Assembly: GCA_937995735.1 (NCBI GenBank)
Contig: CALKIZ010000042.1
Span: 1 to 61,090 of the forward strand
Origin: an uncultured Neomegalonema sp.
GTDB lineage: Bacteria; Pseudomonadota; Alphaproteobacteria; Rhodobacterales; Rhodobacteraceae
Reading direction: 5' to 3'
Length of the DNA stretch: 61,090 nucleotides
A program made the position numbers and the translations under genes. The notes under the pieces were generated by a model. It was not told the DNA's origin and ran no database searches. It saw nothing but the letters and a program-made list of their open reading frames with translations. Of the stretch, positions 6,109-27,370 are shown piece by piece; within the stretch, counting starts at the first letter, position 1, and the number at the start of each line of letters is the position of its first letter.

Positions 6109-7718
6109 GTCTGTTGGAAATTCGTAATCTGCACATTTGCTTGCCTGAGGGGTCAGAGCGGCCCTTTGCGGTTGAGGCGGTTAATCTTGATCTGGCCCCG
6201 AATGAAATCCTTTGTATCGTTGGTGAAAGTGGATCAGGGAAATCCCTAACAGCACGGGCGGTTATGGGATTGCTTCCAAAGCCTCATGTTCGCGTTACCC
6301 ATGGCAGCATCAAGATGGATGGCGAAGATCTCGTCAATGTATCCGATGCGAGAATGCGTGAGATTCGCGGCAGCGATATTTCAATGATCTTTCAGGAACC
6401 GATGACGGCCTTGAATCCTGTTATGACCATCGGCGATCAGATTGATGAAGTATTTCGTTTTCACGTCTCGATGAAGAAAAAAGAACGCCGCCAAAAGGCG
6501 CTTGCCCTACTGAGTGACGTTCATCTTCCCGATCCATTACAAATCATGCTCGCTTATCCACATGAACTCTCGGGTGGTCAGAGACAGCGGGCGATGATTG
6601 CAATGGCGCTTGCGCTTGACCCGAAAATTCTAATTGCTGATGAGCCGACAACAGCCCTCGATGTTACGACCCAAGCTCAAATCTTAAAACTGATCAAAGA
6701 GATGCAGGCGTCGCACAATACGGGCGTTCTCTTTATCACTCATGATTTTGGTGTCGTTGCTGATATTGCTGACCGGGTTGCCGTGATGCAGCAAGGTAAG
6801 CTCGTCGAATCCGGTACGACAGACGAGGTTTTGAACAATCCGCAACATCCTTATACGCAAGCGCTGATAGCTGCCGTTCCCAGCCTCTCCCCGCGACAAC
6901 CCCGGGATCAATCTGCCGAACCCGTTTTACAAGTAGAGGCATTGACCAAAGTATTTCGAAGCGGCGGTGGTTTTTTCGGCTTTGGCGGCGAAGAGCGTAT
7001 GGTCAAGGCCGCGAGCGATGTAACGCTGGAACTTCGCAAAGGCGAAACGCTTGGTATTGTTGGTGAGAGTGGCTCGGGAAAATCTACAGTCGCAAGGTGC
7101 ATTGTGCGTCTGGTCGATGCCGATGATGGAAAGATTTTACTCAACGGAACCGATCTAAGACCATTAAGCCGCGCAGAAATGCGGCCTTTGCGTGCAAATA
7201 TCCAGATGGTGTTCCAAGACCCGTTTGCGTCGCTAAACCCGCGTACCCGTGTGGGCAAAATTATCTCGCAAGGACCGTTGATTCAGGGTGTTCCTATCAA
7301 AGAAGCTCAAGCGAAAGCGCGCGAGTTACTCTCGATTGTTGGTCTTGATAAGCGCGCTTACGACCGTTATCCGCACGAGTTTTCCGGTGGCCAGCGACAA
7401 CGAATTGGCATCGCGCGGGCTTTGGCGTTGAACCCGGATGTTTTAGTGGCAGATGAACCGGTTTCCGCTCTGGATGTTTCAATACAGGCGCAGATATTAA
7501 AGCTGCTCGATAAGATCCGCGAACGGATGACGCTTTCGATGATCTTTATCACGCACGACTTGCGCGTCGCAGCGCAGGTTTGCGACCGCCTTGCCGTCAT
7601 GCGTTACGGCGAAGTCGTTGAAACAGGGCCAACAGCGGAAATATTCGCTAATCCGCAGGCTGCTTACACAAAAGAACTATTGGCAGCGGTTCCGGGTCAA
7701 AGTTGGTCAACGGCTTAG
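6105..7718 (+). CDS. ABC transporter ATPase with two fused nucleotide-binding domains (DppD-DppF type)
   Basis: A 537-aa cytoplasmic ATPase that contains both NBDs of a peptide/nickel importer in one chain. NBD1 has Walker A GESGSGKS at 40-47, signature LSGGQ at 155-159 and Walker B ILIADE at 175-180. NBD2 has Walker A GESGSGKS at 320-327, signature FSGGQ at 426-430 and Walker B VLVADE at 446-451. Each domain ends with the oligopeptide-transporter tail (NPQHPYTQAL and NPQAAYTKELL). It energises the two permeases encoded just upstream and is the last gene of the operon. No clear terminator follows in the 116 bp to the convergent gene. Confidence 0.93.
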   Translation: MSLLEIRNLHICLPEGSERPFAVEAVNLDLAPNEILCIVGESGSGKSLTARAVMGLLPKPHVRVTHGSIKMDGEDLVNVSDARMREIRGSDISMIFQEPMTALNPVMTIGDQIDEVFRFHVSMKKKERRQKALALLSDVHLPDPLQIMLAYPHELSGGQRQRAMIAMALALDPKILIADEPTTALDVTTQAQILKLIKEMQASHNTGVLFITHDFGVVADIADRVAVMQQGKLVESGTTDEVLNNPQHPYTQALIAAVPSLSPRQPRDQSAEPVLQVEALTKVFRSGGGFFGFGGEERMVKAASDVTLELRKGETLGIVGESGSGKSTVARCIVRLVDADDGKILLNGTDLRPLSRAEMRPLRANIQMVFQDPFASLNPRTRVGKIISQGPLIQGVPIKEAQAKARELLSIVGLDKRAYDRYPHEFSGGQRQRIGIARALALNPDVLVADEPVSALDVSIQAQILKLLDKIRERMTLSMIFITHDLRVAAQVCDRLAVMRYGEVVETGPTAEIFANPQAAYTKELLAAVPGQSWSTA

Positions 7719-7834: not shown

Positions 7835-10800
7835 CTATTCAGTCGGGCGAAAGCCGGAAGTGAAGCCAACCCGATCAAATTCATCCCAGATAGAGTCGTC
7901 TAGTTTGATTCTTAATCGCGCGTAGAAACCGGACTGATAAAGATCCCGGAGGCGCTCTTCTTCGATATCAATGTGATTATATCCAATGCCGATTTGTACA
8001 TTTTGAATAATGTTTGCTTTCAATTCGACTCCAACGCCGAGGGTCACATTGTCACCGTCATTATCTGTGAAGGCGGAGACATTACCGCCAAGCGCGAAGC
8101 GATCTCCGCCAAAGCGCCCTTTGGTAAAATCAAAACCAAAGTCAACTTCTGCTCCGGCACGCATCAAGTGTAATGTCGAATCTGCAGAGAAGTTGTCACT
8201 ATCGAAATCCACATGTTCGCCAGAATATCTTGCGTTCAAGCGGATATCATTGCTTGGATGATATGCTCCTCCAAAACTCCAGCGATGTGTTACTTCGCGC
8301 TGCGTAGAATCATCATCAACTTCCAGCTCGTACAGGCCCAAGCCTCTAAGCCGCGTATCATGTTCAGGCCGGTAGGCGGCTCCGAAACGTAACCGATCCC
8401 GCAGCCGATCATTACTTCGTAAATCGGTCGCAAAACGATTACGGAAGAGCAATGTTAAATCTTCGTTCAGTTCATAACCAATGGCGGTATTCGTGTTGAT
8501 ACCAAGACCACGCTCGTCACGTTCGACTTCGATATCATTACGCAAGATCAGGCCTTGTTCGTTATTTTCATAAGCAAAACCGAGTGTGGCAGCAGAGGAT
8601 CGATTTTCACCTTCGTTAAGTGGCTCGACATGTTCAGCGGTTACCCGCATCGCCAAATTTTCGGTTAAATCCCATTTCGCTTTGATCCCATTCGCAGCAC
8701 CACTATTCCCGCCGCCATTCGCACCCTGACGATACTCTGAAAAACTTTCGATGTTGCTCGTAACTTCGTACTCTGCGCCAATTCGAGTTATAAAATTTGT
8801 GCTCGCTCCATCACCGAGGCCGAAAAAACCGGTATTTGTGCTGGAGATCTCGTTTAATGCGTAAAGACGCAAAGTCGGATTCCATTGATATTCTCCACCT
8901 GTGCTCAAACGCCAGTTATTTGTCTCGGTGAAGTCTTGTTCGAATTCTAGGTTCAGCGAACTATTGGGAAGGAAATGTGGACGCCAAGTAGCGCCAATGA
9001 TCCCGCTATAGACTTCATTGGTCGTATCGTCACTTTGGCGTGTTTCGACAGCTCTAGTTCCAAACTTTAAGTCAAAGGATTGATCAAACGAATACCGCCC
9101 TAGCACTTCTGTGCCAAATCTACGATCATTGGTTTCTAAGTCGCGTGTGTATAAGGAGTCTGTGTTAATACTAAATCGTTCGGTAACAAAATGGTCTGTG
9201 GTAACACGTACTTCTTCGCGGCCCGGCGCAAGAGAAGAGTTTGGGATATCGAAATCTTCATCAGTACGAGCAGCTTCGGCTCGAATGTTATTTCTATCAC
9301 TACGATACTCATAAGATATCCGTCCAGCGTAGCCGGTTTCGTCAAAGCGGTTTTCTGTTTGAGATAATTCAACTTGTACATTACCGAAGCCCCCGCGCCC
9401 GGCTTCGACGTAGGCCGAACGCACTTTACGGCGTTCATCAGACTCAGCAGCCGCATTCGAATGAACTTCACGATAACCGACGGCTAGACCCTCAAAAGGT
9501 TCAACACGGACTTCGCCGCCATAGATCAAGTAGTTGTCGCTGGACCCTTCTTCTGTTTCAAAAGTTACTCGGATAGAAACAGGGTTTAGATCTTCGTCAA
9601 TTAACGGAATTGGTCGGTTAAAGATCAATGCACCACGGAAGAAGTCGAGTGTATAATCTGAGAAACGTGTTTGACGTTGCTCGGAGATAATGACGCTTGG
9701 TTGATCGCGGTCACGTGTGATGATTTCAATGATTTCGCTACCCTCGACGATTCCATCTAAATCGAAATCATAAGGACCGGAAACGCCGCGCCCACGTTGC
9801 TCTAAGACACGCTGATTGTCATCGGTTTCTGCTATAAATAAATCGACTGTGACCGGACCTTTTTCGATATGTGCGCGACCACCAGTTAGGGATCGGCGTA
9901 ATGCACCCAAGCGAATTGTATCTGCTTGCGGTTCAACAGCAATGTCACCATAGAGAATGAATGATTGTTCTCGTTCAACTTTGACATATATCTTCGAGTT
10001 TGAGTGTGCATCAAATCCCCGTTCCGAATTATCACCGTAGACTGGATAGAATTCATCTCTACGAATGTCCCGGAACAGACGCTCTTCAGTATCTTGATCG
10101 CTGTCATAACGAAGCGTCAAAAGGTTCTGGCCAAGAATTTTTCCTTTTAAATAAAGCTGACCGCGTACACCTTCCGTAGTTTCTTCGAAAGAAGAAATCT
10201 CATCGTCTTCGATAAGGCCTTCAAGATCACTTCCATCTTCGCCAAACCGGATTGCGCCTTCAATTACACCTGCGAATACACGTTCATTTAGGTCTGGCGA
10301 AAACGCGATTTGGGTTTTGACCGTTGCAAAGTCGGCTTCAATTCCTATGGTTTCGTTACCGACCAGATCCGGAGGAATGAAATCGAATGTTGCTTCACCG
10401 TTATCAATATACGCTTGCAGGCCGTGTGTAGCATCGCGAATATCCTGTACATCCCAAGTGCCATTCTGAGCAGTTAAGGTCACCTCGGCTGGAACACGCA
10501 CCAATCGGCCCGCATCATCAACAATACGCATTGCAACGGGAATCCGCGCACGGGAATCCGCTGGTGCATTTTCAGGAACGACAAAGACGATACCGGTTGG
10601 TTTGCCCGGAGCATAAACAGTAATTGTCTCGTTGCCGCGATCATTTCCAAACCGGTCGGTTAGAATAACGGAGATTTTATTCTCACCAGACTGTAAGCGG
10701 AGAGCAACATATTCTATTGCCTGCACACCGCGCTCAGTGTGAGTGACTTTTGCGCCGATTTGCGAATTGGAAATTGCCTCTCCGTTTACTTCGAGACGTA

Positions 10801-13684
10801 ATTTTGCTTCGCCCGGTCCTTTGACGCGCAAAGTAAGCGATGGCCTGCTTGTTTCATGGCCATTGGTGATTCCTACAAAACCAAGTTTCGGATCGAGATT
10901 TGCTACCAAATCTTCAATTGGCGTTTTGATAATTGCGAGATCACCGTCGGTGTCGATTTCCTCTCTTTGATCGGCGACTGTCAAAAGTTCAGTCGCGGTA
11001 TCAATGCCGGATTCATTGCGCGAGGCGTTTCTTGTTGTCGCTTCAAACGTTAGGGGTAAATCGTCACGTAAGCGGGACTCGCGATTATCTAACCCCTCAA
11101 AACGTTCTAGGCGGGCTTCGACATCTGCGGCGGCTTTGGGTGTCCATGATAATGGAAAATCTTCGGCGCGTAATTCACCGCGCTTTAAGTCTATTAAGCG
11201 TGATCCGGCGGCTTCAACATCGTCAACATCGGTAACTATTGGCGTAGATGACTTCGGCAATGTACTTTTTTGCAGCGCGAGGACGCCCGTGGTTGGGCGC
11301 AAACCGAATAAAGAATATCGGCCATTTTCATCTGTCACCACCGATAGGCCATTCGAAGTGACAATTTTTACACCGGGTACACCGGGTTCGTGGTGCTTGT
11401 TTCCCTTATCGTCTTTTTCTGTCTGAATACCATCGCCGTTTTTGTCGAGAAAAACCCGCCCTATAACGACAGCTTCATCAGAAAATACGCCGCCGCGATC
11501 ATCAATAGTGATTGTCGACCGAGCCTCTTGTGATGTGAGTCTGACACCCGTTCCCGCGCGTTCACCGCTTAATGTTGCAATGTTGGTTTTCTTGCTTTGC
11601 CTTGTCGCCGTTCCGATGCGAACGCCGTAAGTTACTTCTGTCGTGTTCGTTGGCGTAAGAGTGCCCAAATCGAATGTTAATATACCGTCATTTGTTAAGA
11701 CTGGGGCATCGGCAAAAGGTTGGCCGTCATGGCGGGCGGATCCTTCGATATAAAGAAGACCTGGAGGCAACTGGTCAATGATTTCGGCGTTGAGCAATGC
11801 TTGATCGGTCTCGTTCGTAGCGGTCAAAGTATAGACCACGAAGCCACCACGTCGAACCGTTGTTCGATCTGACGTTTTATCAATTGTTAAGGGTATCGGC
11901 CCGTTTGGATCGAGTGGTACGTCGAAATTTACAATGGATTGTTCATCGAAAGTGAAGGCATCCCCAAAAGAAATTTGGGGATCAATTCGACGATTAAAGC
12001 TGGGGAAAAATTCGCGGATAGATGAAAAGCTGTAACCAAACGGAGGAATAACGTCGAGTCGGTAATCCCCTGCTGGAAGCAGGCCAAGATCAAAGTATCC
12101 TTCTGCGTCGCTTATAGTCTGATTGAACGGATCGTTATTGTTACCTTGCTCGAAGATGAGCACTTCTGCACCAGCGATGGGTGCGTTATCAGTGCTATCA
12201 AATACAAAGCCGCCCGGTTGCAATCCGATATCGGATGTTAGTGTTTCACCCAAACAAATGGTATCGGCTGTGGCATTGATTCTATCTCCGGCCATTCCCT
12301 CGATAACATTATTAAGCTGAGTGGCGTTGTTTGAACGGAGCAAACCGATCTGAGCTGTTATAAACTCTCCGGTGTTTGGCCCTGTCTCCCGAGCAGTGAG
12401 CAGTTCCTGGTCACCGGAATTTGCCGTCGTTATGAGAATGGAAATCTCATCGACAGCATTGGTAATATTACACGCTGCTGCGCCGACAGACACCAGAATA
12501 TTACGGTCAAAAGGTGTGCTATTGATTGGGCTGTTATCTAGACCCGTAAGAAAATTGATGCTTTGCCCGCCCCCACGGACCGGAGTTGTCACGTCGTTAG
12601 ATGCGCGCACATTGTTGCCATCATCAGAATAACCGAGTGCAGTATTCACGACGTTGAGTTGAGTGATGGTCGGCGAGACTGAAACGGTGAAACTTAAAGT
12701 ACTAGACTGGCCTGCACCAAATGGAGTGTCACGTAAAAATCCAACAGCTTCGACATCCCTTAAATCCTCGGGGAGTGAACGTGTATAACTCTGTGCTGAT
12801 TGACCATGCAGATGATAAACAACATCGAAATTTGGTCCATCTACTGCCGAATGAAATACTGTATTAAGCGGAATTTGATCACGTATTAAGACGCCATTAA
12901 ACTGGCGACCATCGACTATCAGTGGCTCGCGTTCTACAGAATTATAAAGTGCAATCTCTTCAGAAGAGTTATTGCGTGCATTGATTGTATACCTGATTTG
13001 TTGATCCCCGGTGAGGAGGACCGCAGATTTCTGCAAAGACAAATTTGCAGTTGTAATGACTGTCCGCCCTCGAGAAGTTAAGTTTATCGGGTTCGTTGCG
13101 GCTGGGTCTACGATCACTTCTTGTGGGGGAACAGCTGTAGCATTGAGTTCAGAATCTGCAATGTCATCAATATTTACATCGCCAGGCGTGATGAACGTGT
13201 AAATTAAGGCGAGCTGATCATCGGGTTCAATTCGAATGGGTTGGTTGGGGTCGACTACAATGTCGCTTCTGTCAATGATGCCATTGTTGTTTGAATCAAT
13301 AAATAGTTGACCGCTGTTGTTGAAATCATCGTTTGCCAATTCAGTTATGGCAAAATTAGTCTCTAGAGGGACGTTCCCAGTATTTTCGGCACGAAAATTA
13401 TATTGGCTTGAACTCGCCCGTGGCACAAATACTTCTTGGCCGCCACTCACTTCTAGTCTTGGGCTGGGCAGTACCTCTGTAAGTCCGGTATTGGATTGTA
13501 TTCTTTCAGTGATACCGAGGCGGGTGTTCAAGAAAGTTGCTTCGGCTTGGTTGGTGATGTGAGAACCGGATGCAGGTGGTCCCGCAAAACTCGCGCTTGC
13601 ACTTAATAGACCGACAATGAATGATCCACAGGTAAAAGCAATCTGCCAGCGTGATCTGCTCTCCCTTCCTGTTTGTTGGATCAT
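7835..13684 (-). CDS. Giant DUF11/SdrB-repeat protein with predicted C-terminal outer-membrane beta-barrel
   Basis: A 1949-aa exported protein. The ATG at 13684 is preferred over an upstream TTG (13711) because it has an AGGA upstream and gives a normal signal peptide (cleavage near SASASFA). The mature N-terminus carries GSHITNQAEATFLN, shared with the upstream 900-aa protein. DUF11-like segments start near residues 211 and 596. Carboxypeptidase-regulatory or SdrB-like segments lie near 498 and 740 (GRVFLDKNGDGIQ). From about residue 1150 to the end there are many alternating-hydrophobicity strands with short turns and repeated YGD, RYDSD and YEYRSDRN motifs, as in an outer-membrane barrel, ending in the strand GFYARLRIKLD. 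It probably displays repeats at the cell surface. I do not recognise a characterised homologue; the barrel is inferred by eye. Confidence 0.75.
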   Translation of the reverse strand: MIQQTGRESRSRWQIAFTCGSFIVGLLSASASFAGPPASGSHITNQAEATFLNTRLGITERIQSNTGLTEVLPSPRLEVSGGQEVFVPRASSSQYNFRAENTGNVPLETNFAITELANDDFNNSGQLFIDSNNNGIIDRSDIVVDPNQPIRIEPDDQLALIYTFITPGDVNIDDIADSELNATAVPPQEVIVDPAATNPINLTSRGRTVITTANLSLQKSAVLLTGDQQIRYTINARNNSSEEIALYNSVEREPLIVDGRQFNGVLIRDQIPLNTVFHSAVDGPNFDVVYHLHGQSAQSYTRSLPEDLRDVEAVGFLRDTPFGAGQSSTLSFTVSVSPTITQLNVVNTALGYSDDGNNVRASNDVTTPVRGGGQSINFLTGLDNSPINSTPFDRNILVSVGAAACNITNAVDEISILITTANSGDQELLTARETGPNTGEFITAQIGLLRSNNATQLNNVIEGMAGDRINATADTICLGETLTSDIGLQPGGFVFDSTDNAPIAGAEVLIFEQGNNNDPFNQTISDAEGYFDLGLLPAGDYRLDVIPPFGYSFSSIREFFPSFNRRIDPQISFGDAFTFDEQSIVNFDVPLDPNGPIPLTIDKTSDRTTVRRGGFVVYTLTATNETDQALLNAEIIDQLPPGLLYIEGSARHDGQPFADAPVLTNDGILTFDLGTLTPTNTTEVTYGVRIGTATRQSKKTNIATLSGERAGTGVRLTSQEARSTITIDDRGGVFSDEAVVIGRVFLDKNGDGIQTEKDDKGNKHHEPGVPGVKIVTSNGLSVVTDENGRYSLFGLRPTTGVLALQKSTLPKSSTPIVTDVDDVEAAGSRLIDLKRGELRAEDFPLSWTPKAAADVEARLERFEGLDNRESRLRDDLPLTFEATTRNASRNESGIDTATELLTVADQREEIDTDGDLAIIKTPIEDLVANLDPKLGFVGITNGHETSRPSLTLRVKGPGEAKLRLEVNGEAISNSQIGAKVTHTERGVQAIEYVALRLQSGENKISVILTDRFGNDRGNETITVYAPGKPTGIVFVVPENAPADSRARIPVAMRIVDDAGRLVRVPAEVTLTAQNGTWDVQDIRDATHGLQAYIDNGEATFDFIPPDLVGNETIGIEADFATVKTQIAFSPDLNERVFAGVIEGAIRFGEDGSDLEGLIEDDEISSFEETTEGVRGQLYLKGKILGQNLLTLRYDSDQDTEERLFRDIRRDEFYPVYGDNSERGFDAHSNSKIYVKVEREQSFILYGDIAVEPQADTIRLGALRRSLTGGRAHIEKGPVTVDLFIAETDDNQRVLEQRGRGVSGPYDFDLDGIVEGSEIIEIITRDRDQPSVIISEQRQTRFSDYTLDFFRGALIFNRPIPLIDEDLNPVSIRVTFETEEGSSDNYLIYGGEVRVEPFEGLAVGYREVHSNAAAESDERRKVRSAYVEAGRGGFGNVQVELSQTENRFDETGYAGRISYEYRSDRNNIRAEAARTDEDFDIPNSSLAPGREEVRVTTDHFVTERFSINTDSLYTRDLETNDRRFGTEVLGRYSFDQSFDLKFGTRAVETRQSDDTTNEVYSGIIGATWRPHFLPNSSLNLEFEQDFTETNNWRLSTGGEYQWNPTLRLYALNEISSTNTGFFGLGDGASTNFITRIGAEYEVTSNIESFSEYRQGANGGGNSGAANGIKAKWDLTENLAMRVTAEHVEPLNEGENRSSAATLGFAYENNEQGLILRNDIEVERDERGLGINTNTAIGYELNEDLTLLFRNRFATDLRSNDRLRDRLRFGAAYRPEHDTRLRGLGLYELEVDDDSTQREVTHRWSFGGAYHPSNDIRLNARYSGEHVDFDSDNFSADSTLHLMRAGAEVDFGFDFTKGRFGGDRFALGGNVSAFTDNDGDNVTLGVGVELKANIIQNVQIGIGYNHIDIEEERLRDLYQSGFYARLRIKLDDSIWDEFDRVGFTSGFRPTE

Positions 13685-13755
13685 TGTGATTATTCCTAGG
13701 GCGGTAGCCAAAATAAGCAGATCGCGGCAAATGCGTTAGGGTAAACGGGTGTTGG

Positions 13756-13781
13756 GATCGGACCGCTTGCGCGGCCCGATC
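13756..13781 (-). other. Stable hairpin between the two DUF11 genes
   Basis: An 11-bp inverted repeat (GATCGGACCGC at 13756-13766, GCGGCCCGATC at 13771-13781, one G-T wobble, TTGC loop) lies between the stop of the 900-aa gene and the start of the giant gene. No T-run follows on the minus strand, so it may act as an mRNA-stability or partial-termination element that sets the ratio of the two proteins. On the plus strand TATGTTTTTA follows, so a terminator for opposing transcripts is also possible. Confidence 0.5.
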
Positions 13782-13788
13782 TATGTTT

Positions 13789-16491
13789 TTATTCGTCAAT
13801 TCTGACGGTGAAGGTGAGCGATGCTGGTGCGCCGGGGATTAGCGTGCCATGCGTACTTTCGAGCGCGCCGCCTTGACCTTCAAGAGGTCGGGTGACGATG
13901 GATGAGCCTGCCGTTGGTGTAAGCGCAATCGAACAACTGCCCCCACACTCGGTCAACGTTGTGAAACCAGGAACAGTATCCTGAATTGTCACGGCGTTTG
14001 CGTCCGCTGTACCAGTGTTGTTTGCAGTGATCTGATACCTGATACATTGACCGGGAGCCGCCTGGATATCAGTTGCTACAAAAGATCCGACAATTGTGCC
14101 GTTACAGGCAGGGTCAACGGCTTGCAGTTTTATCAGTGTCAAGTCGCCCGATGTGATAACGACCGTATCCGTTACAGCATTGTCAGACGCATCAGCATCA
14201 ACAACGGACCCGCCGTTGAGTGATGTTGACAATGTTAGAGTTTCGGCTTCGCTTAAGCCAATTGCACCGTTTGATGGGACTTGAACACGATGGATCAAAG
14301 GAACTGAAGCTCCCGGCGCGATACCCCCTGGGATATCGTTGATGTTATCCAAGACAACATCTCCGGCATCCACAGCACCATCGCTATTTGCATCGAAGAA
14401 TACGGTCCCTACAAAGGTACTGAAACCTCCCGTCGCGCTCGGTGTGATCGAGCCTTCTGTAATTGCGATATTACCTTCGTTCGTCAAAACATGAGGTATA
14501 TCGACTACGCCACCTGGTGCGACTTGCACTGTTTGATCCGTCGTCAGTGCTACATCAACGATTTGGTTCACCGACACGGTATTAACGATTGAGTCGCTTT
14601 GACCTGAAGTCGGTGATGTGACCGCGACCGTTACCGGTGTGTCTCCCGGCGCTTGACCTGCTGGCGGTGTGACAATGACAAGAATATCCTGACTTCCACC
14701 GCCGGGAATAACACCAGTATTATTGATTGGTGTGCCATCGGGCAGTTGGAATTCAACTGTAAAGCCGGCAGGCAATGGTACGTCTAATGACACGTCAAAC
14801 GTATCCGAGGTTGGGCCACCATTTGTGATGGTTAGTGGGAAAGTAGTCGTGACTCCCGGATCAGTGTTATTTGTAATCAACGCTGCACCACTATCAGGTC
14901 CGGTTCCGGCCAATGCTCCGGCAGCGCCAGTATTTGTTAAGTCGATGGATGCGCCTTGAACTGCTCCGGTGAATAGACCTGTAACAGAGTTTGCTAAACC
15001 ACCATTTGTTGATTGAGCGGTTAGTGATAGTTGATAATTCGTAGCACCTGCCGCTGTCGCCGGTGCATTTGCTGGTAGTGTCGCGATAACATTGACTCTT
15101 TGTGATGCACCGGATGCGAGCGGACCCAATGGCCCAACAATTGGAGTCGCACCATCGGCTCCTACCAATTGGAAAGTTGTCCCACTCGGGAAACCAGTGA
15201 TCCCACCACCGGTAACAGCATTTGCTACATTGAGATCAATCGTATCTGAAATATTCGAGCTATTGGTGATGACGAATTCCATGGTAATTGTACCACCTTG
15301 GAATACATCTCCGTTTTCTGTGACGATATCGTTGAGCGCTCCGTCATCATCGGTTGCCGATGTGTTAGTGCCGTCAAGGTTTGTACCGTCGGGATCGCCT
15401 GCAAATGTAGTCGCCGCTGCGTCCGCTGCGGTAACTTGAAATGCAGGTGCAACCGTTACGACGGCTTGGTTCGATGGTGGAAAATCTGTGCCAGCGACGG
15501 TTTGCGTTGCCACGTTTGCAATGTCACCTGCGGGTGCGGCGGCATCAATGATTGCTTGGAATGTTACTGTAGCAGTCCTGCCGCTTGGAACATTGTCAAC
15601 TGTAAACTCAACAGAATTAGTTCCGGTCGTGAAGTTATAGTCGATCTGGAAACCGTTGCCGTTTGACACTTCAAATCCGTCGGAGTCGGTATCTGTCAAT
15701 CCTGTTGCAGAATCTGACCAAATCGCCGAACCGGGAACATAGTTTAAAAGCGTATCCAGCTGATCGGTGACAACCAAGTTGTTTGCCGGAGCCAGACCGG
15801 TACTGGAATAAGTCAATGTCACGGTAACGGTGTCACCCGGACTTGTTATGCCATCACCGTTCGTATCCTGAACGGACATTGCTTTGACGATTTCGGTAAT
15901 CGCCCCAACAGAAACCGTAATTGTATCGGTGTTCGTTGCCGTCAGGGTTGTTGCTGTTGTCGAACTGAACTGGCTTGTCGCTACAACGTCGATTTCTTCG
16001 GTTGCGTTTGTAGGTGCGGTACTTGGGATGGCAGCTTCAATAACAAAACCAAATGACTCGCCAGCTGATAGTGATGGCGTTGCGGTGATGGGCGTGGTGG
16101 TGTCAGCAACACCATCGAAGTTTGCATCTGCAAAAATTTGAATGCTCGTAAAGTCAAATGGTCCGCCCACATCTTCTGTTGCCGTGAGAGTGAATGTATC
16201 GATGCCATTGCCATCGTTGGTGATGGTATGCGGCAAAAATACCAAACCGCCTGGGCTGGCATCTTCTACATTATCCGTAACGAGAGTCACGCCGGCAACT
16301 TGCTGAACGATCGTCTCAACACGGTTAGAAGTAACGCTAATCGTATCGCCAGCCGCGTTAAGATAGGTTGCTGATGCTTGGTTACCGATTCTGGAGCCGG
16401 CAGTCGGTGCTGCTGCGTAACTCGTAACAGCAGTGAGGGATGCTGCGGTAAGCAACAAGCCAAATCGAATTGAACGCTTTTGGATCGTCAT
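13789..16491 (-). CDS. Secreted DUF11-type repeat protein, 900 aa
   Basis: The ATG at 16491 is chosen because GAGGA sits about 9 nt upstream; the longer frame begins with TTG and contains the ribosome-binding site. A signal peptide ends near VTSYAAA. The mature start contains GSRIGNQASATYLNAAG, the same pattern as in the giant downstream protein. The body is built of Thr/Asp/Gly-rich beta-sandwich repeats with DUF11 features, for example GDTVTVTLTYSSTGLAPA with a following VVTDQL, and a Cys-containing terminal repeat (residues about 795-900). No barrel, LPXTG or PEP-CTERM anchor is seen, so it may be released or held by its giant neighbour. The role is probably surface layer or adhesion, by inference only. 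Confidence 0.75.
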   Translation of the reverse strand: MTIQKRSIRFGLLLTAASLTAVTSYAAAPTAGSRIGNQASATYLNAAGDTISVTSNRVETIVQQVAGVTLVTDNVEDASPGGLVFLPHTITNDGNGIDTFTLTATEDVGGPFDFTSIQIFADANFDGVADTTTPITATPSLSAGESFGFVIEAAIPSTAPTNATEEIDVVATSQFSSTTATTLTATNTDTITVSVGAITEIVKAMSVQDTNGDGITSPGDTVTVTLTYSSTGLAPANNLVVTDQLDTLLNYVPGSAIWSDSATGLTDTDSDGFEVSNGNGFQIDYNFTTGTNSVEFTVDNVPSGRTATVTFQAIIDAAAPAGDIANVATQTVAGTDFPPSNQAVVTVAPAFQVTAADAAATTFAGDPDGTNLDGTNTSATDDDGALNDIVTENGDVFQGGTITMEFVITNSSNISDTIDLNVANAVTGGGITGFPSGTTFQLVGADGATPIVGPLGPLASGASQRVNVIATLPANAPATAAGATNYQLSLTAQSTNGGLANSVTGLFTGAVQGASIDLTNTGAAGALAGTGPDSGAALITNNTDPGVTTTFPLTITNGGPTSDTFDVSLDVPLPAGFTVEFQLPDGTPINNTGVIPGGGSQDILVIVTPPAGQAPGDTPVTVAVTSPTSGQSDSIVNTVSVNQIVDVALTTDQTVQVAPGGVVDIPHVLTNEGNIAITEGSITPSATGGFSTFVGTVFFDANSDGAVDAGDVVLDNINDIPGGIAPGASVPLIHRVQVPSNGAIGLSEAETLTLSTSLNGGSVVDADASDNAVTDTVVITSGDLTLIKLQAVDPACNGTIVGSFVATDIQAAPGQCIRYQITANNTGTADANAVTIQDTVPGFTTLTECGGSCSIALTPTAGSSIVTRPLEGQGGALESTHGTLIPGAPASLTFTVRIDE

Positions 16492-16605
16492 TGGTGTAGT
16501 TTCCTCGTGATTCAAGACATGACATATCCATTGCCACCAAAGCTGGAGACTGCGTATGTCTTTGTTATTTATGTATAATTAGCTGATTTGGTACTGACAG
16601 AAGCT

Positions 16606-24670: not shown

Positions 24671-25243
24671 TTATCGACGGCAGGTGGGGTCAGCTTTGCC
24701 TACTTTAGCACCAATCCGCGAGAGATCGCGGGAAAACAGGATGTGGGACACCCGGTCTGTGACGTTTTCGCGGTGTACGATTTCAAACGCCCAAAACTTG
24801 GATTTTCTAGTCGTATCAAATTCGGAGTTTGTGAAAAGAACATACTCCGCAGGAACGGTGAGCGTTTCGTTTTCGCCCATCTCCAGACGCGCCTTTACGA
24901 GCCATTCGGCTGTCATCGGTTCCGTTTTTTCATCAATCTGATACCCGGTATCCGTCAATGAAAAGACGCTATTTTCTTTGGCGATAACCTCACTGTAAGT
25001 GCCGGATCGACGGTTGGCTGACCGGAAACGAACCATGTCGCCAACGCAAAAATCCGCACCGACTTGGCGTAGATACATAGTGCGTGTCTCAAGACCGTCG
25101 GCTGTTTTTGTCAAATTTGTTCGAACGTAATCAACACGCTGATTTAAGAGAAACAAGACAATGAAAAACAGGAGGTACGGGACTAGGCCCCGTATCGTTT
25201 CATTCGCGCGCCAGCTTTGCTCTTTTTCTATGAGAGAAGCCAT
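24671..25243 (-). CDS. Signal-peptidase-I-like membrane protein, apparently lacking catalytic residues
   Basis: A 190-aa protein with one N-terminal transmembrane helix (about 17-34) and a periplasmic domain. Its C-terminal half follows the conserved S26 boxes: VPAEYVLFTNSEFDTTRKS and FWAF (130-153) align with the VP..Y..MGDN.DNS.DSR.WGF box of LepB, and LSRIG (174-178) with the same string in E. coli LepB. GDMVRF (68-73) fits box C. The catalytic Ser of the SM motif appears as Thr55-Met56, and the box D Lys position reads Tyr83-Ser-Glu. It may therefore be a pseudo-peptidase that binds substrates. It is the last gene of the AAA-TPR operon (GAGGG before ATG, 7-nt gap). The alignment was made by eye. 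Confidence 0.6.
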   Translation of the reverse strand: MASLIEKEQSWRANETIRGLVPYLLFFIVLFLLNQRVDYVRTNLTKTADGLETRTMYLRQVGADFCVGDMVRFRSANRRSGTYSEVIAKENSVFSLTDTGYQIDEKTEPMTAEWLVKARLEMGENETLTVPAEYVLFTNSEFDTTRKSKFWAFEIVHRENVTDRVSHILFSRDLSRIGAKVGKADPTCRR

Positions 25244-25250
25244 TATTCCC

Positions 25251-26195
25251 TCAGTATTTCTTCAACGAAACGGACTTCTTCCGTTGGGAAAACTTATTGT
25301 AAATTGCCGGGACTGTCACAAAAACTAATAGCGCAATCCATCCAATCACGATCAGGGTTCGTATGGAATTTAATTCGAATCCTGTAAGGACAATCACCAC
25401 GCTGAAGGCAATGTTATAAAAATCCAAGCCAATCAGGACGATGGGAATAAGAATTACCCAAGCCCCTATCCTGCCCACGAGTGAGTCAAAGCCATAAAAG
25501 ATTGCAAGAATTAAGGTCAGCAAGAAGAACGGCGGAAAGTACATCAACCAGCTTGCCTTGATGAGCAGAGCCATACGGCGGTTTGACGGGTCTGCAGCAA
25601 GCGCAAGGCGGGCGTATTTTCTGGCGGTTCCGGGTCTGGCTAGTTGGAAGTAATTTGTCGCCATCGTTGCATTCAGCTCGGGATCATTCGGAAATTCCGG
25701 GTGCGCCTGCTCCATCAAGCGTCTGGCGCGAAAAATATCGTCGATGCGGTGATGAGCCATGCCGAGGTCTTTGAGCATCGCCGGATTGTCATTTCCGTGG
25801 CCGTACTCTTGGAGTTTTTTGCTGACAGATTTGGTTTTGCCGGATGCTGCATCTATTTGCAGGTCCATCATCTCAATGCGCTGACTCATAAATGGAAAGT
25901 CTGTTTTGAAGCGGTCGCGAATTTTACGGGCTTCGCGCTTTTTTCCCGCTTTCATTAACGCTTCAAATTCCGAGTTTCGTAGCCCTGCGTTTTGAGGGTT
26001 TTCGGCTAGGATTTGCCGCACGAGTTTTAGGGCTTCTTTCGGCTTTTTGGCTTCGATTTCTATATCGACGCGAAGCTGCCATGCATTGATGTTTTTCGGG
26101 TCTTCGTCCAGCGCTTTTCTGACAATACGCCGTGCGCCATCGAAGTTTTCCGCTTTCAATAACGCACGCGCCGTATTGAGAGACGCGCTGCTCAT
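25251..26195 (-). CDS. TPR protein with C-terminal transmembrane helices
   Basis: A 314-aa protein. Residues 1 to about 205 form helical hairpins of TPR type (for example NFDGARRIVRKALDEDPKN and later RPGTARKYARLALAADPSN). Hydrophobic segments follow at about 209-235, 241-272 and 279-299, and the chain ends with a Lys-rich cytoplasmic tail. The TPR part should face the cytosol and could dock the AAA ATPase encoded just upstream, whose stop overlaps this start by four bases (ATGA). The downstream gene encodes a membrane protein like signal peptidase. The three are best read as parts of one membrane complex; no function is known to me. Confidence 0.75.
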   Translation of the reverse strand: MSSASLNTARALLKAENFDGARRIVRKALDEDPKNINAWQLRVDIEIEAKKPKEALKLVRQILAENPQNAGLRNSEFEALMKAGKKREARKIRDRFKTDFPFMSQRIEMMDLQIDAASGKTKSVSKKLQEYGHGNDNPAMLKDLGMAHHRIDDIFRARRLMEQAHPEFPNDPELNATMATNYFQLARPGTARKYARLALAADPSNRRMALLIKASWLMYFPPFFLLTLILAIFYGFDSLVGRIGAWVILIPIVLIGLDFYNIAFSVVIVLTGFELNSIRTLIVIGWIALLVFVTVPAIYNKFSQRKKSVSLKKY

Positions 26196-27370
26196 TTTGC
26201 GTATTTTTTCAGGAACGCAGCGAGGTCGTCATACATACCGCTTTCATTGGCATATTCTGCAAAGCTGCGGGCTTGGCCGAGCCACTCGCCGACAGAAGAT
26301 TTTATTTCCTTGAAGGCTTCAGCGAATTGCTCGTTTGACAGAGGTGACAGGGTATCGACCGAGTCGCTGTCCTCGATGGCAATGTCGATGGCCGTATCCA
26401 CCAAAGCGGACAGGTCAGCGCCGGAAAAGCCGCTGCTTTTGTCGATGATTTTATCGATGTTCAAATCGGGAGACGTGGGGCGATCATCGAGTAGGGTTTT
26501 GAGAATGAACTTCCGCGCCACTTTATCAGGTGGCGGTACGAAGATTGCGCGATCAAATCGACCGGGGCGGCGGAATGCCGAGTCTAGTGACCACGGTACG
26601 TTCGTTGCGCCGAGGAACAGCATCCCCTCGTTGTTTTCGCTAAAGCCGTCCATCTCGGTCAACAGGGCAGAGACGGTGGTGTTGATTTTGGCTGCGCCGT
26701 CAAACTGCCTGCGCTGTGCGAGGGCTTCTACCTCGTCAAAGAACAGCACAACGGGCCGCGAGGCGCGGGCGTCTGCAAAGATTTGGGCGATGCGCTTTTC
26801 GGCATTACCGATATATTGATCGAGGACATCCGCTGCGCGCACGTCATAGAAATGCGCATTACATTCTGTCGCCAAAGCCCGTGCCAGCATGGTCTTGCCG
26901 CATCCCGGCGGTCCATACATCAACACGCCGCCGCCTGCTTTACGCTTGAACCTGTCGAACAAGGCTTTCTTGTTCTGGAACGGGTTGATGATCTTTCGGC
27001 GAACCTGTTTTTTGACTTCTTCCAAGCCGCCAATATCGTTGAAGGTGATGCCGGTTGGTTTTTTGGCCGGCAGAATGGTTTGCTTTTTCGTGAGGCTATA
27101 GACGTTTGAGGCAGCCTCGGGTTCTTGAGGCTTCCAGCGCGCGGCTTCTTCTGCTGCTTCTGCGCCGATGAGCAATTCAGCCGCTTTGTCGCGGAGGCTT
27201 TCATCAGTGATGGTCTCGGGGTCAATCTGCGCGATGGCATCAACCACGATGCTGCTGTCCGGTACATTCTCTAGTAAAATCAGAGCAGCCCGAAAGCTGC
27301 CCTCAGCTTTCGGGTTTTGGATGGTCAGATCGAGAAGCGATTGAATGTCGCTGCTGACTTTTCGATGCAT
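26192..27370 (-). CDS. AAA ATPase of Vps4/p97/FtsH-like type
   Basis: A 392-aa cytoplasmic ATPase. Residues 1-100 are helical and of unknown type. The AAA core has Walker A GPPGCGKT (153-160), a pore-loop aromatic in LDQYIGNAEKR (Tyr186), Walker B VVLFFDEVEAL (207-217), sensor 1 GATN (254-257) and two arginine fingers in RRPGRFD (267-273). The C-terminal helix with ANESGMYDDL resembles Vps4-like ATPases. It should form a hexamer that threads or remodels proteins. It has no protease domain, unlike FtsH, and is followed by a TPR membrane protein (4-nt overlap) and a signal-peptidase-like protein, which suggests membrane-linked protein extraction. Confidence 0.88.
   Translation of the reverse strand: MHRKVSSDIQSLLDLTIQNPKAEGSFRAALILLENVPDSSIVVDAIAQIDPETITDESLRDKAAELLIGAEAAEEAARWKPQEPEAASNVYSLTKKQTILPAKKPTGITFNDIGGLEEVKKQVRRKIINPFQNKKALFDRFKRKAGGGVLMYGPPGCGKTMLARALATECNAHFYDVRAADVLDQYIGNAEKRIAQIFADARASRPVVLFFDEVEALAQRRQFDGAAKINTTVSALLTEMDGFSENNEGMLFLGATNVPWSLDSAFRRPGRFDRAIFVPPPDKVARKFILKTLLDDRPTSPDLNIDKIIDKSSGFSGADLSALVDTAIDIAIEDSDSVDTLSPLSNEQFAEAFKEIKSSVGEWLGQARSFAEYANESGMYDDLAAFLKKYAK

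Follow-up and report, generated by a model that had tools for sequence, protein, structure and literature searches.

Introduction

Membrane protein extraction in bacteria is usually ascribed to FtsH, which pulls and cuts in one protein. Several described systems come close to the locus reported here. In Bacillus subtilis, YqgP serves as an adaptor of FtsH independently of catalysis and was likened by its authors to Derlins and p97 (PMC7231995). In Streptococcus pyogenes, SipA has the fold of signal peptidase I (peptidase family S26) without the Ser-Lys dyad, keeps a conserved cleft and is required for pilus assembly (PMC4049620). In addition, bacterial AAA ATPases termed VPS4-like have been noted in which snf7 is displaced by a TPR plus six-transmembrane (6TM) protein (PMC11237479, section on the pair). 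Here we analyzed a stretch of 61,090 nucleotides from an uncultured Neomegalonema sp. (Rhodobacteraceae; assembly GCA_937995735.1, contig CALKIZ010000042.1), hereafter the window, which is the entire contig C42 of a 3.69-Mb genome in 113 contigs. Its minus strand carries three consecutive genes, in the order AAA ATPase, TPR membrane protein and a 190-aa protein designated P190. An earlier note on this DNA, made from its letters alone, had read them as a membrane extraction or quality-control machine.

As judged from sequence comparison, the widespread unit is the AAA ATPase plus the TPR membrane protein, and P190 is a lineage-specific third part. As far as our searches show, the AAA-TPR pair is already known as a kind, being briefly mentioned in print (PMC11237479, in its section on the pair), and is apparently unstudied: no functional study of it was recognised in the literature searched, a coverage that left most subscription papers outside. 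What is new here is a common C-terminal tail of the TPR proteins, the orphan receptors and the pseudo-S26 partner, none of which was met in the same literature. We tentatively favour the view that the trio would be a membrane-anchored, p97-like protein dislocase or remodeller with a pseudo-signal-peptidase outside.

Results

Anatomy of the locus and spread of the AAA-TPR pair

All features of the trio lie on the minus strand, and the starts of open reading frames (ORFs) were set mechanically. The AAA ATPase gene (26192-27370) encodes 392 aa with one AAA domain of the VCP/Vps4 type. The TPR membrane protein gene (25251-26195) encodes 314 aa, with N-terminal TPRs and a C-terminal hydrophobic part. 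The P190 gene (24671-25243) encodes a pseudo-signal-peptidase, namely an S26 relative without the Ser-Lys dyad. The first two genes overlap by 4 nt (26192-26195) and a 7-nt gap (25244-25250) separates the TPR gene from that of P190, both as described in the earlier note. Measured against one sister species, the ratios of nonsynonymous to synonymous substitution (dN/dS) were 0.22 for P190, 0.12 for the TPR protein and 0.036 for the AAA ATPase; the first of these indicates that P190 is under constraint. Other genomes carry the trio again or some of its parts, and all three ratios are well below 1, so the operon is more than a chance arrangement.

We searched genome contigs with the AAA alignment and took the best 80 loci; L and G numbers below denote loci and genomes. 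A TPR-profile match was called adjacent if it lay within 450 nt of the AAA gene on either side. With a profile seeded with 13 proteins, five of which came from the counted loci, an adjacent match was found in 55 of the 80 loci, spread over several phyla. A hydrophobic segment was present in 52 of these matches and absent from three, and the remaining 25 loci had no adjacent match. In Flavobacteriaceae, 8 of 120 genomes had the AAA gene at E<=1e-100, and a TPR-profile ORF directly follows the AAA gene in all 11 loci inspected (these eight and three more). The TPR membrane partner that had been proposed for the ATPase is thus AAA-adjacent in relatives as well, and we presume that it is the receptor or anchor of the AAA ATPase.

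Some loci carry further genes. Two tandem TPR-membrane genes stand behind the AAA gene in the Aquimarina locus L084 (6862-9339) and in L136; in the former, a working lepB lies about 1.9 kb past the second TPR gene. In the gammaproteobacterial loci L064 and L065, the AAA and TPR genes are separated by a small ORF (7011-7424 and 2521-2928, respectively), whose 136-138 aa include three hydrophobic segments. In Subsaxibacter (L071, 4017-6858), the AAA-TPR pair is preceded, at a distance of a few bases, by the end of an ordinary signal peptidase gene. We considered lepB as a general neighbour of the pair and rejected it, as an S26 gene was found within the 1.5-kb flank in one of the eight AAA-bearing Flavobacteriaceae genomes, that of Subsaxibacter.

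A common tail of the TPR proteins

The TPR protein matched Pfam TPR_19 (64.4 bits) in three stretches, and the hydropathy plot gave three hydrophobic segments that start near residues 215, 252 and 280 (25302-25553), which agrees with the C-terminal arrangement first noticed. The protein ends in the tail SVSLKKY (25254-25274), whose pattern is kept in the clade copies: hydrophobic-x-hydrophobic, usually Lys or Arg next, and a terminal Tyr or Phe. It is present in each of the 25 complete copies listed for the window's clade, among them orphans; the TPR copies of L045 (internal stop) and L059 (split frame) were excluded from this count. The carriers are the window's family, a Hyphomicrobiales metagenome-assembled genome, Lysobacter, Motilimonas and Leucothrix, and the tail has one extra residue in four copies (L063, L064, L065 and L147). 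It is kept across 15 aligned TPR proteins, with 11 of the other 14 just 21-29% identical to the window's. The AAA partners of the tail-bearing proteins form a starred group in the 64-domain tree described below. Among the best 80 loci, the longer TPR forms listed from other phyla are without the tail.

The stretch preceding the tail is mostly basic. According to the positive-inside rule, a basic flank marks the cytosolic side, which suggests a cytosolic C-terminal end. Given that TPR grooves are able to bind C-terminal peptides, the tail may be a docking element. In the window's genome, a single AAA of this type stands against three TPR copies; two of the three are orphans on other contigs, and both are tailed (L042, 7902-8825; L043, 7626-8567). 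Genus members with complete loci have two to four TPR copies per one AAA (two AAA in G009). The presence of the same tail on every complete copy listed for the clade, even on orphans, suggests as the simplest reading that one motor serves several receptors.

Kinship of P190 with signal peptidase I

P190 belongs to a peptidase-S26-related family, a kinship that profile comparisons establish via its relatives. The Pfam S26 model PF10502 (cut-off 22.9 bits) was passed by two of eight P190 relatives, L056 (26.5 bits) and L059 (24.0 bits); L145 and L051 reached 12 bits each, and four had no match. An S26 search of 26 genomes recovered the L056 P190 independently. We then compared the nine-member P190 alignment by hhalign with an S26 target of 24 LepB-type rows (23 distinct) and obtained 94% with an E of 1.2e-7. 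The controls stayed far lower: none of 60 column shuffles exceeded 0.8% (best E 0.07), reversing the alignment gave 0.2% (E 0.26), and the AAA and TPR alignments gave E values of 0.55 and 0.45 against S26. Six members, without L056, L059 and the fragment L058, gave 88%, as compared with at most 2.1% (best E 0.023) in 60 shuffles. Finally, the P190 profile returned from 394 family genomes, at E<=0.001, three P190s and three weak matches (E 2e-5 to 7e-4), all Pfam S26. The S26 kinship claimed at the outset was therefore well founded. The region aligned to the S26 profile covers residues 67-173 (24725-25045). Searches with the window's own P190 returned chance-level matches only, one PHROG (0.11) and one PDB entry (1.1). 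In another family genome, an ordinary LepB adjoins an S26 protein that looks degenerate and has a DUF805 at its N-terminus (L183, 1441-2382).

The catalytic residues were counted in the eight P190 copies covering both sites. The fragment L058 was left out; the L047 and L051 copies, which run to the contig end without a stop codon yet cover both sites, were counted. In the joint alignment with LepB, which is loose near box B so that a one-column shift is possible, the copies have T, T, G, G, T, I, T, T at the nucleophile column and S, S, V, R, R, R, R, R at the base column. None of the eight copies has Ser at the nucleophile column or Lys at the base column. The motif GTAM(N/Q)P in L056 and L059 suggests that the true nucleophile position there is Ala, which is not Ser either way. 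The dyad loss described in the earlier note stands, but its assignment of Thr and Glu does not: in the window's protein the two columns read Thr and Ser, and Glu lies one column further. Because the dyad is absent in all eight copies, P190 is taken as an S26 relative and not as a signal peptidase.

Each of the eight copies has two Cys, one at the box C strand and the other near the C-terminus. In the window these are Cys66 (25046-25048) and Cys188 (24680-24682), putative partners of a disulphide; the pair would fit one in the periplasm. Hydropathy predicts an N-terminal membrane helix at about residues 15-40 (25124-25186), the segment starting at residue 15.

The AAA ATPase

The ATPase matched Pfam AAA (136.5 bits) and AAA_lid_3. 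It has the Walker A motif GPPGCGKT (residues 153-160, 26891-26914), the pore-loop-1 Tyr186 (26813-26815) and the Walker B motif VVLFFDE (residues 207-213, 26732-26752). Six motor residues were checked, Lys159, Asp212-Glu213 and Arg268/271/274; none of them varies among the 22 aligned AAA sequences, and position 186 is Y, F or W in all of these. In the genus alignment this position is Tyr in seven of eight sequences and His in the divergent G009 copy L060. Among the best 25 of the 35 Pfam families listed there was no protease match; the FtsH-type M41 protease domain was not matched among them, and there is no room for it after the lid. The AAA core is complete, as had been stated, with its pore-loop Tyr and no protease domain. 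By Pfam there is a single AAA domain, not the tandem pair of the Cdc48/p97 type.

The N-terminal helical domain (residues 7-78, 27137-27352) was modelled by AlphaFold as four short helices, with a block predicted local distance difference test (pLDDT) score of 69-78 over residues 11-70. Three of the six AAA relatives scanned have a Pfam TPR at this position (L066, L068 and L071; not L062, L064 or L145). This domain is more likely a degenerate TPR-type domain than an MIT domain.

The label "Vps4-like" fared less well than the assignment to the AAA class. The best PDB sequence matches are VCP-like/Cdc48 chains, and the folds nearest to the AlphaFold model (pLDDT 82.4) are p97/Cdc48; the CdvC profile scores the ATPase at 163 bits against a cut-off of 650. 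A tree of 64 AAA domains sets the family apart from Cdc48 D1/D2, PAN, FtsH and one CdvC-type sequence (support 98); relatives belonging to several phyla of bacteria, together with four sequences from archaea, fall with it. A second tree (52 rows) puts the family and CdvC on a common branch (support 92, not starred), while a grouping with Cdc48 D2 was not rejected (p-AU 0.178). The group names in both trees were assigned from search scores, length and domain order, and the sole CdvC-type sequence has a long branch and 441 bits, below the CdvC model cut-off of 650. On these trees the family appears as a group of its own, whose nearest kin may be CdvC or Cdc48.

Distribution and linkage of the trio

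The AAA gene was found in 8 of 14 genus genomes, the window's included (E<=1e-60); the seven others are 64-98% identical to it, and the second G009 copy is 51% identical. Across the family it is sporadic (4 of 394 genomes at the same threshold). Within the genus the parts are co-inherited. TPR-membrane copies are present in seven of the eight AAA-bearing genomes and in none of the six without AAA (Fisher p 0.005, relatedness ignored), and the one AAA genome without them is G006, whose AAA is cut by a contig end. P190 occurs in six of the eight and in none of the six.

Two further genera, represented by G109 and G267, have the trio in the same order, with AAA proteins 68% and 65% identical, so that the co-occurrence and gene order predicted from the window recur elsewhere. 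A fixed trio is not what we found, however: the AAA-TPR pair occurs without P190, the TPR-P190 pair occurs without AAA, several TPR copies accompany one AAA and the order varies. The order AAA-TPR-P190 is seen in the window, L044, L145 and L146, and AAA-P190-TPR in L056 and L059; L047 and L051, from two genus members, have TPR-P190 with no AAA gene. P190 adjoins the TPR gene in eight of eight copies and shares a cluster with the AAA gene in six of eight. It is present in 6 of 61 genomes (the window's own and relatives), all six within the genus. G424 has the AAA and TPR genes and no P190 match. In 385 genomes of the class, none was found beyond the window's own at E<=1e-10, a threshold that misses weaker ones. 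A P190-like stretch with stops in G013 was not counted. At L051 (2267-6411), a TPR-P190 pair follows same-strand genes for head completion, tail completion gp17, tail tube and GTA-gp10; at L047 (11563-15544), such a pair follows same-strand head completion and GTA-gp10 among the scanned genes.

Genomic setting

The trio is flanked by a 652-aa ORF upstream and a 290-aa ORF downstream, and the sister species G012 has similar flanking ORFs. The other large ORFs of the window resemble housekeeping genes, as judged by eye. Two adjacent, very large minus-strand ORFs at 7835-16515 (1958 and 908 aa) have, also by eye, the look of secreted repeat proteins.

Discussion

If the trio is a dislocase or remodeller, the AAA hexamer would dock from the cytosol on TPR receptors, a single motor being common to several of them. 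The basic C-terminal tails of these receptors, lying in the cytosol, would bind the helical N-domain of the motor or a TPR groove. P190 would have one membrane span and a disulphide-locked peptidase-like domain on the outer side, and might hold a signal-peptide-like or membrane-proximal segment with no cutting. The motor would next pull the bound protein or dismantle a complex. The working mode may resemble that of Derlin with p97, or that of FtsH with a YqgP that is catalytically dead; an S26 fold would take the place of the rhomboid. Two studied cases, YqgP-FtsH and SipA, make such a mechanism plausible. We also considered a bolder form, which we regard as doubtful: a bacterial counterpart of the dislocation step of endoplasmic-reticulum-associated degradation (ERAD), drawn from another protease fold. 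One p97-like ring and several tailed TPR receptors would be combined with a disulphide-locked dead signal peptidase, which would read retained signal peptides or mis-inserted segments on the outside and pass them to the motor for extraction. If the common tail recruits the ring, it would offer a simple sequence handle for finding receptors in genomes and for genetic testing.

Several observations weigh against a dislocase with P190 as its outer part. First, neither Pfam nor NCBIfam gave a match for the window's P190 at E<=1, and hhalign was not significant for the window with L044 (0.2%), for these two with L145 and L146 (4.4%) or for L056 and L059 alone (0.2%). The AlphaFold model of P190, from the single sequence, has a pLDDT of 44.9, and its N-terminal helix is the sole confident part. 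Second, the association is loose. G004 has the AAA and TPR genes and no P190 match, and G005 and G013 have the TPR-P190 pair without AAA, behind gene-transfer-agent-like genes. The P190 profile matched none of the 3222 ORFs from the best 80 AAA loci, so P190 is not part of the core; it appears from these searches to be an accessory, confined to the taxonomic family of the window. Third, the species counts are not phylogenetically independent, and the tail is absent from two Pseudomonadota loci among the best 80 (L081 and L098), in which the TPR gene precedes AAA. Finally, in SipA a mutation designed to block the peptide cleft was without effect and no peptide binding was detected (PMC4049620).

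This last result makes a structural role of P190 a serious rival. P190 might help to assemble the TPR protein or form a structural subunit of it; the TPR protein would itself be the receptor, and the dead peptidase fold would merely brace its outer side. Such a role would fit the constant neighbourhood of P190 and the TPR gene, the looser clustering with AAA and the common occurrence of AAA-TPR pairs without P190; it would also fit the SipA pull-downs, which gave no partner. However, the peptide cleft of SipA shows strong conservation, and a role in peptide binding is what the authors of that study favour (PMC4049620); we hold a purely bracing P190 to be unlikely, if well worth keeping in view.

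We consider it likewise improbable, to a similar degree, that the operon is an ESCRT-like remodeller, in which AAA, as a bacterial Vps4, would take apart a polymer on the membrane or an array of receptors, with the TPR protein in place of ESCRT-III and P190 as a structural periplasmic cap. The section on the pair in PMC11237479 does term the bacterial relatives VPS4-like, with snf7 displaced by the TPR plus 6TM protein. The CdvC score, though far below its cut-off, and the common branch with the CdvC-type sequence in one tree point the same way. Against this stand the best PDB sequence and fold matches, which are VCP/Cdc48, and the N-domain, which models as four short helices and is occupied by TPRs in half of the relatives scanned. 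In addition, ESCRT homologues are not identifiable in bacteria according to PMC10936438. PspA/IM30, in a search that did not include Snf7 itself, was over its cut-off in five of the eight genus genomes with AAA and in three of the six without. PspA as an AAA partner was accordingly rejected, since it does not co-occur with AAA in the 14 genus genomes; the one PspA_IM30 match of the window's genome is on contig C38.

A defence or mobile-element module, in which AAA and accessory membrane proteins would act against phages or on gene-transfer agents, is quite improbable. The sporadic distribution of AAA in the family, matches to the IetA profile (best 110.7 bits, no cut-off given) and the two TPR-P190 pairs behind gene-transfer-agent-like genes speak for it. 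However, the NCBIfam IteA model, whose cut-off is 510 bits, gives 103.9, a score that kinship among AAA proteins would lead one to expect; neither the TPR protein nor P190 matches an IetS model, and the window's other large ORFs have the housekeeping look noted above. That P190 still cleaves, by catalytic residues that have moved elsewhere in the protein, and that the operon is a processing-plus-export system, seems to us very improbable: an alignment leaves room for a non-canonical site, but all eight copies are without the Ser nucleophile and Lys base, and their common cysteines are placed as in a disulphide and probably not as a new dyad.

For the dislocase or remodeller that we favour, the nearest described relative of the core is the pair in PMC11237479, which likewise has a single-ring AAA encoded next to a TPR protein with a membrane part. 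The section on that pair gives the partner a 6TM domain and mentions neither a pseudo-S26 gene nor orphan receptors, whereas the window's TPR protein has three hydrophobic segments by hydropathy. The TPR proteins of the window's clade are shorter, with one to three strong segments and the conserved tail; the relatives from Verrucomicrobiota, Planctomycetota and Bacteroidota among the best 80 loci mostly have four to six predicted segments.

For P190, SipA is a close parallel, an S26 relative with its Ser-Lys dyad replaced and a non-enzymatic role (PMC4049620); SipA is encoded in a sortase pilus cluster, whereas the P190 gene keeps company with those of the TPR protein and the AAA, and its product shows a pattern of two cysteines. 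YqgP-FtsH resembles the proposed arrangement in that a membrane protease relative acts as an AAA adaptor independently of catalysis, but YqgP is an active rhomboid and FtsH has its own protease (PMC7231995); in the trio, P190 is without the S26 dyad and the ATPase lacks a protease domain. Cdc48/p97/VAT are closest to the window's AAA in the PDB sequence search and in predicted fold, and differ in having two AAA domains where the window's protein has one, with a short helical N-domain. Derlin-p97 of eukaryotic ERAD, as treated in PMC7231995, also joins a p97-like motor to an inactive protease relative in the membrane; Derlins are polytopic and of the rhomboid type, and P190 is of the S26 type with one predicted membrane helix. 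A widespread, protease-less p97-like ring that goes together with membrane receptors, joined within a single family by a dead relative of a protease, would follow the logic of Derlin-p97 with another fold.

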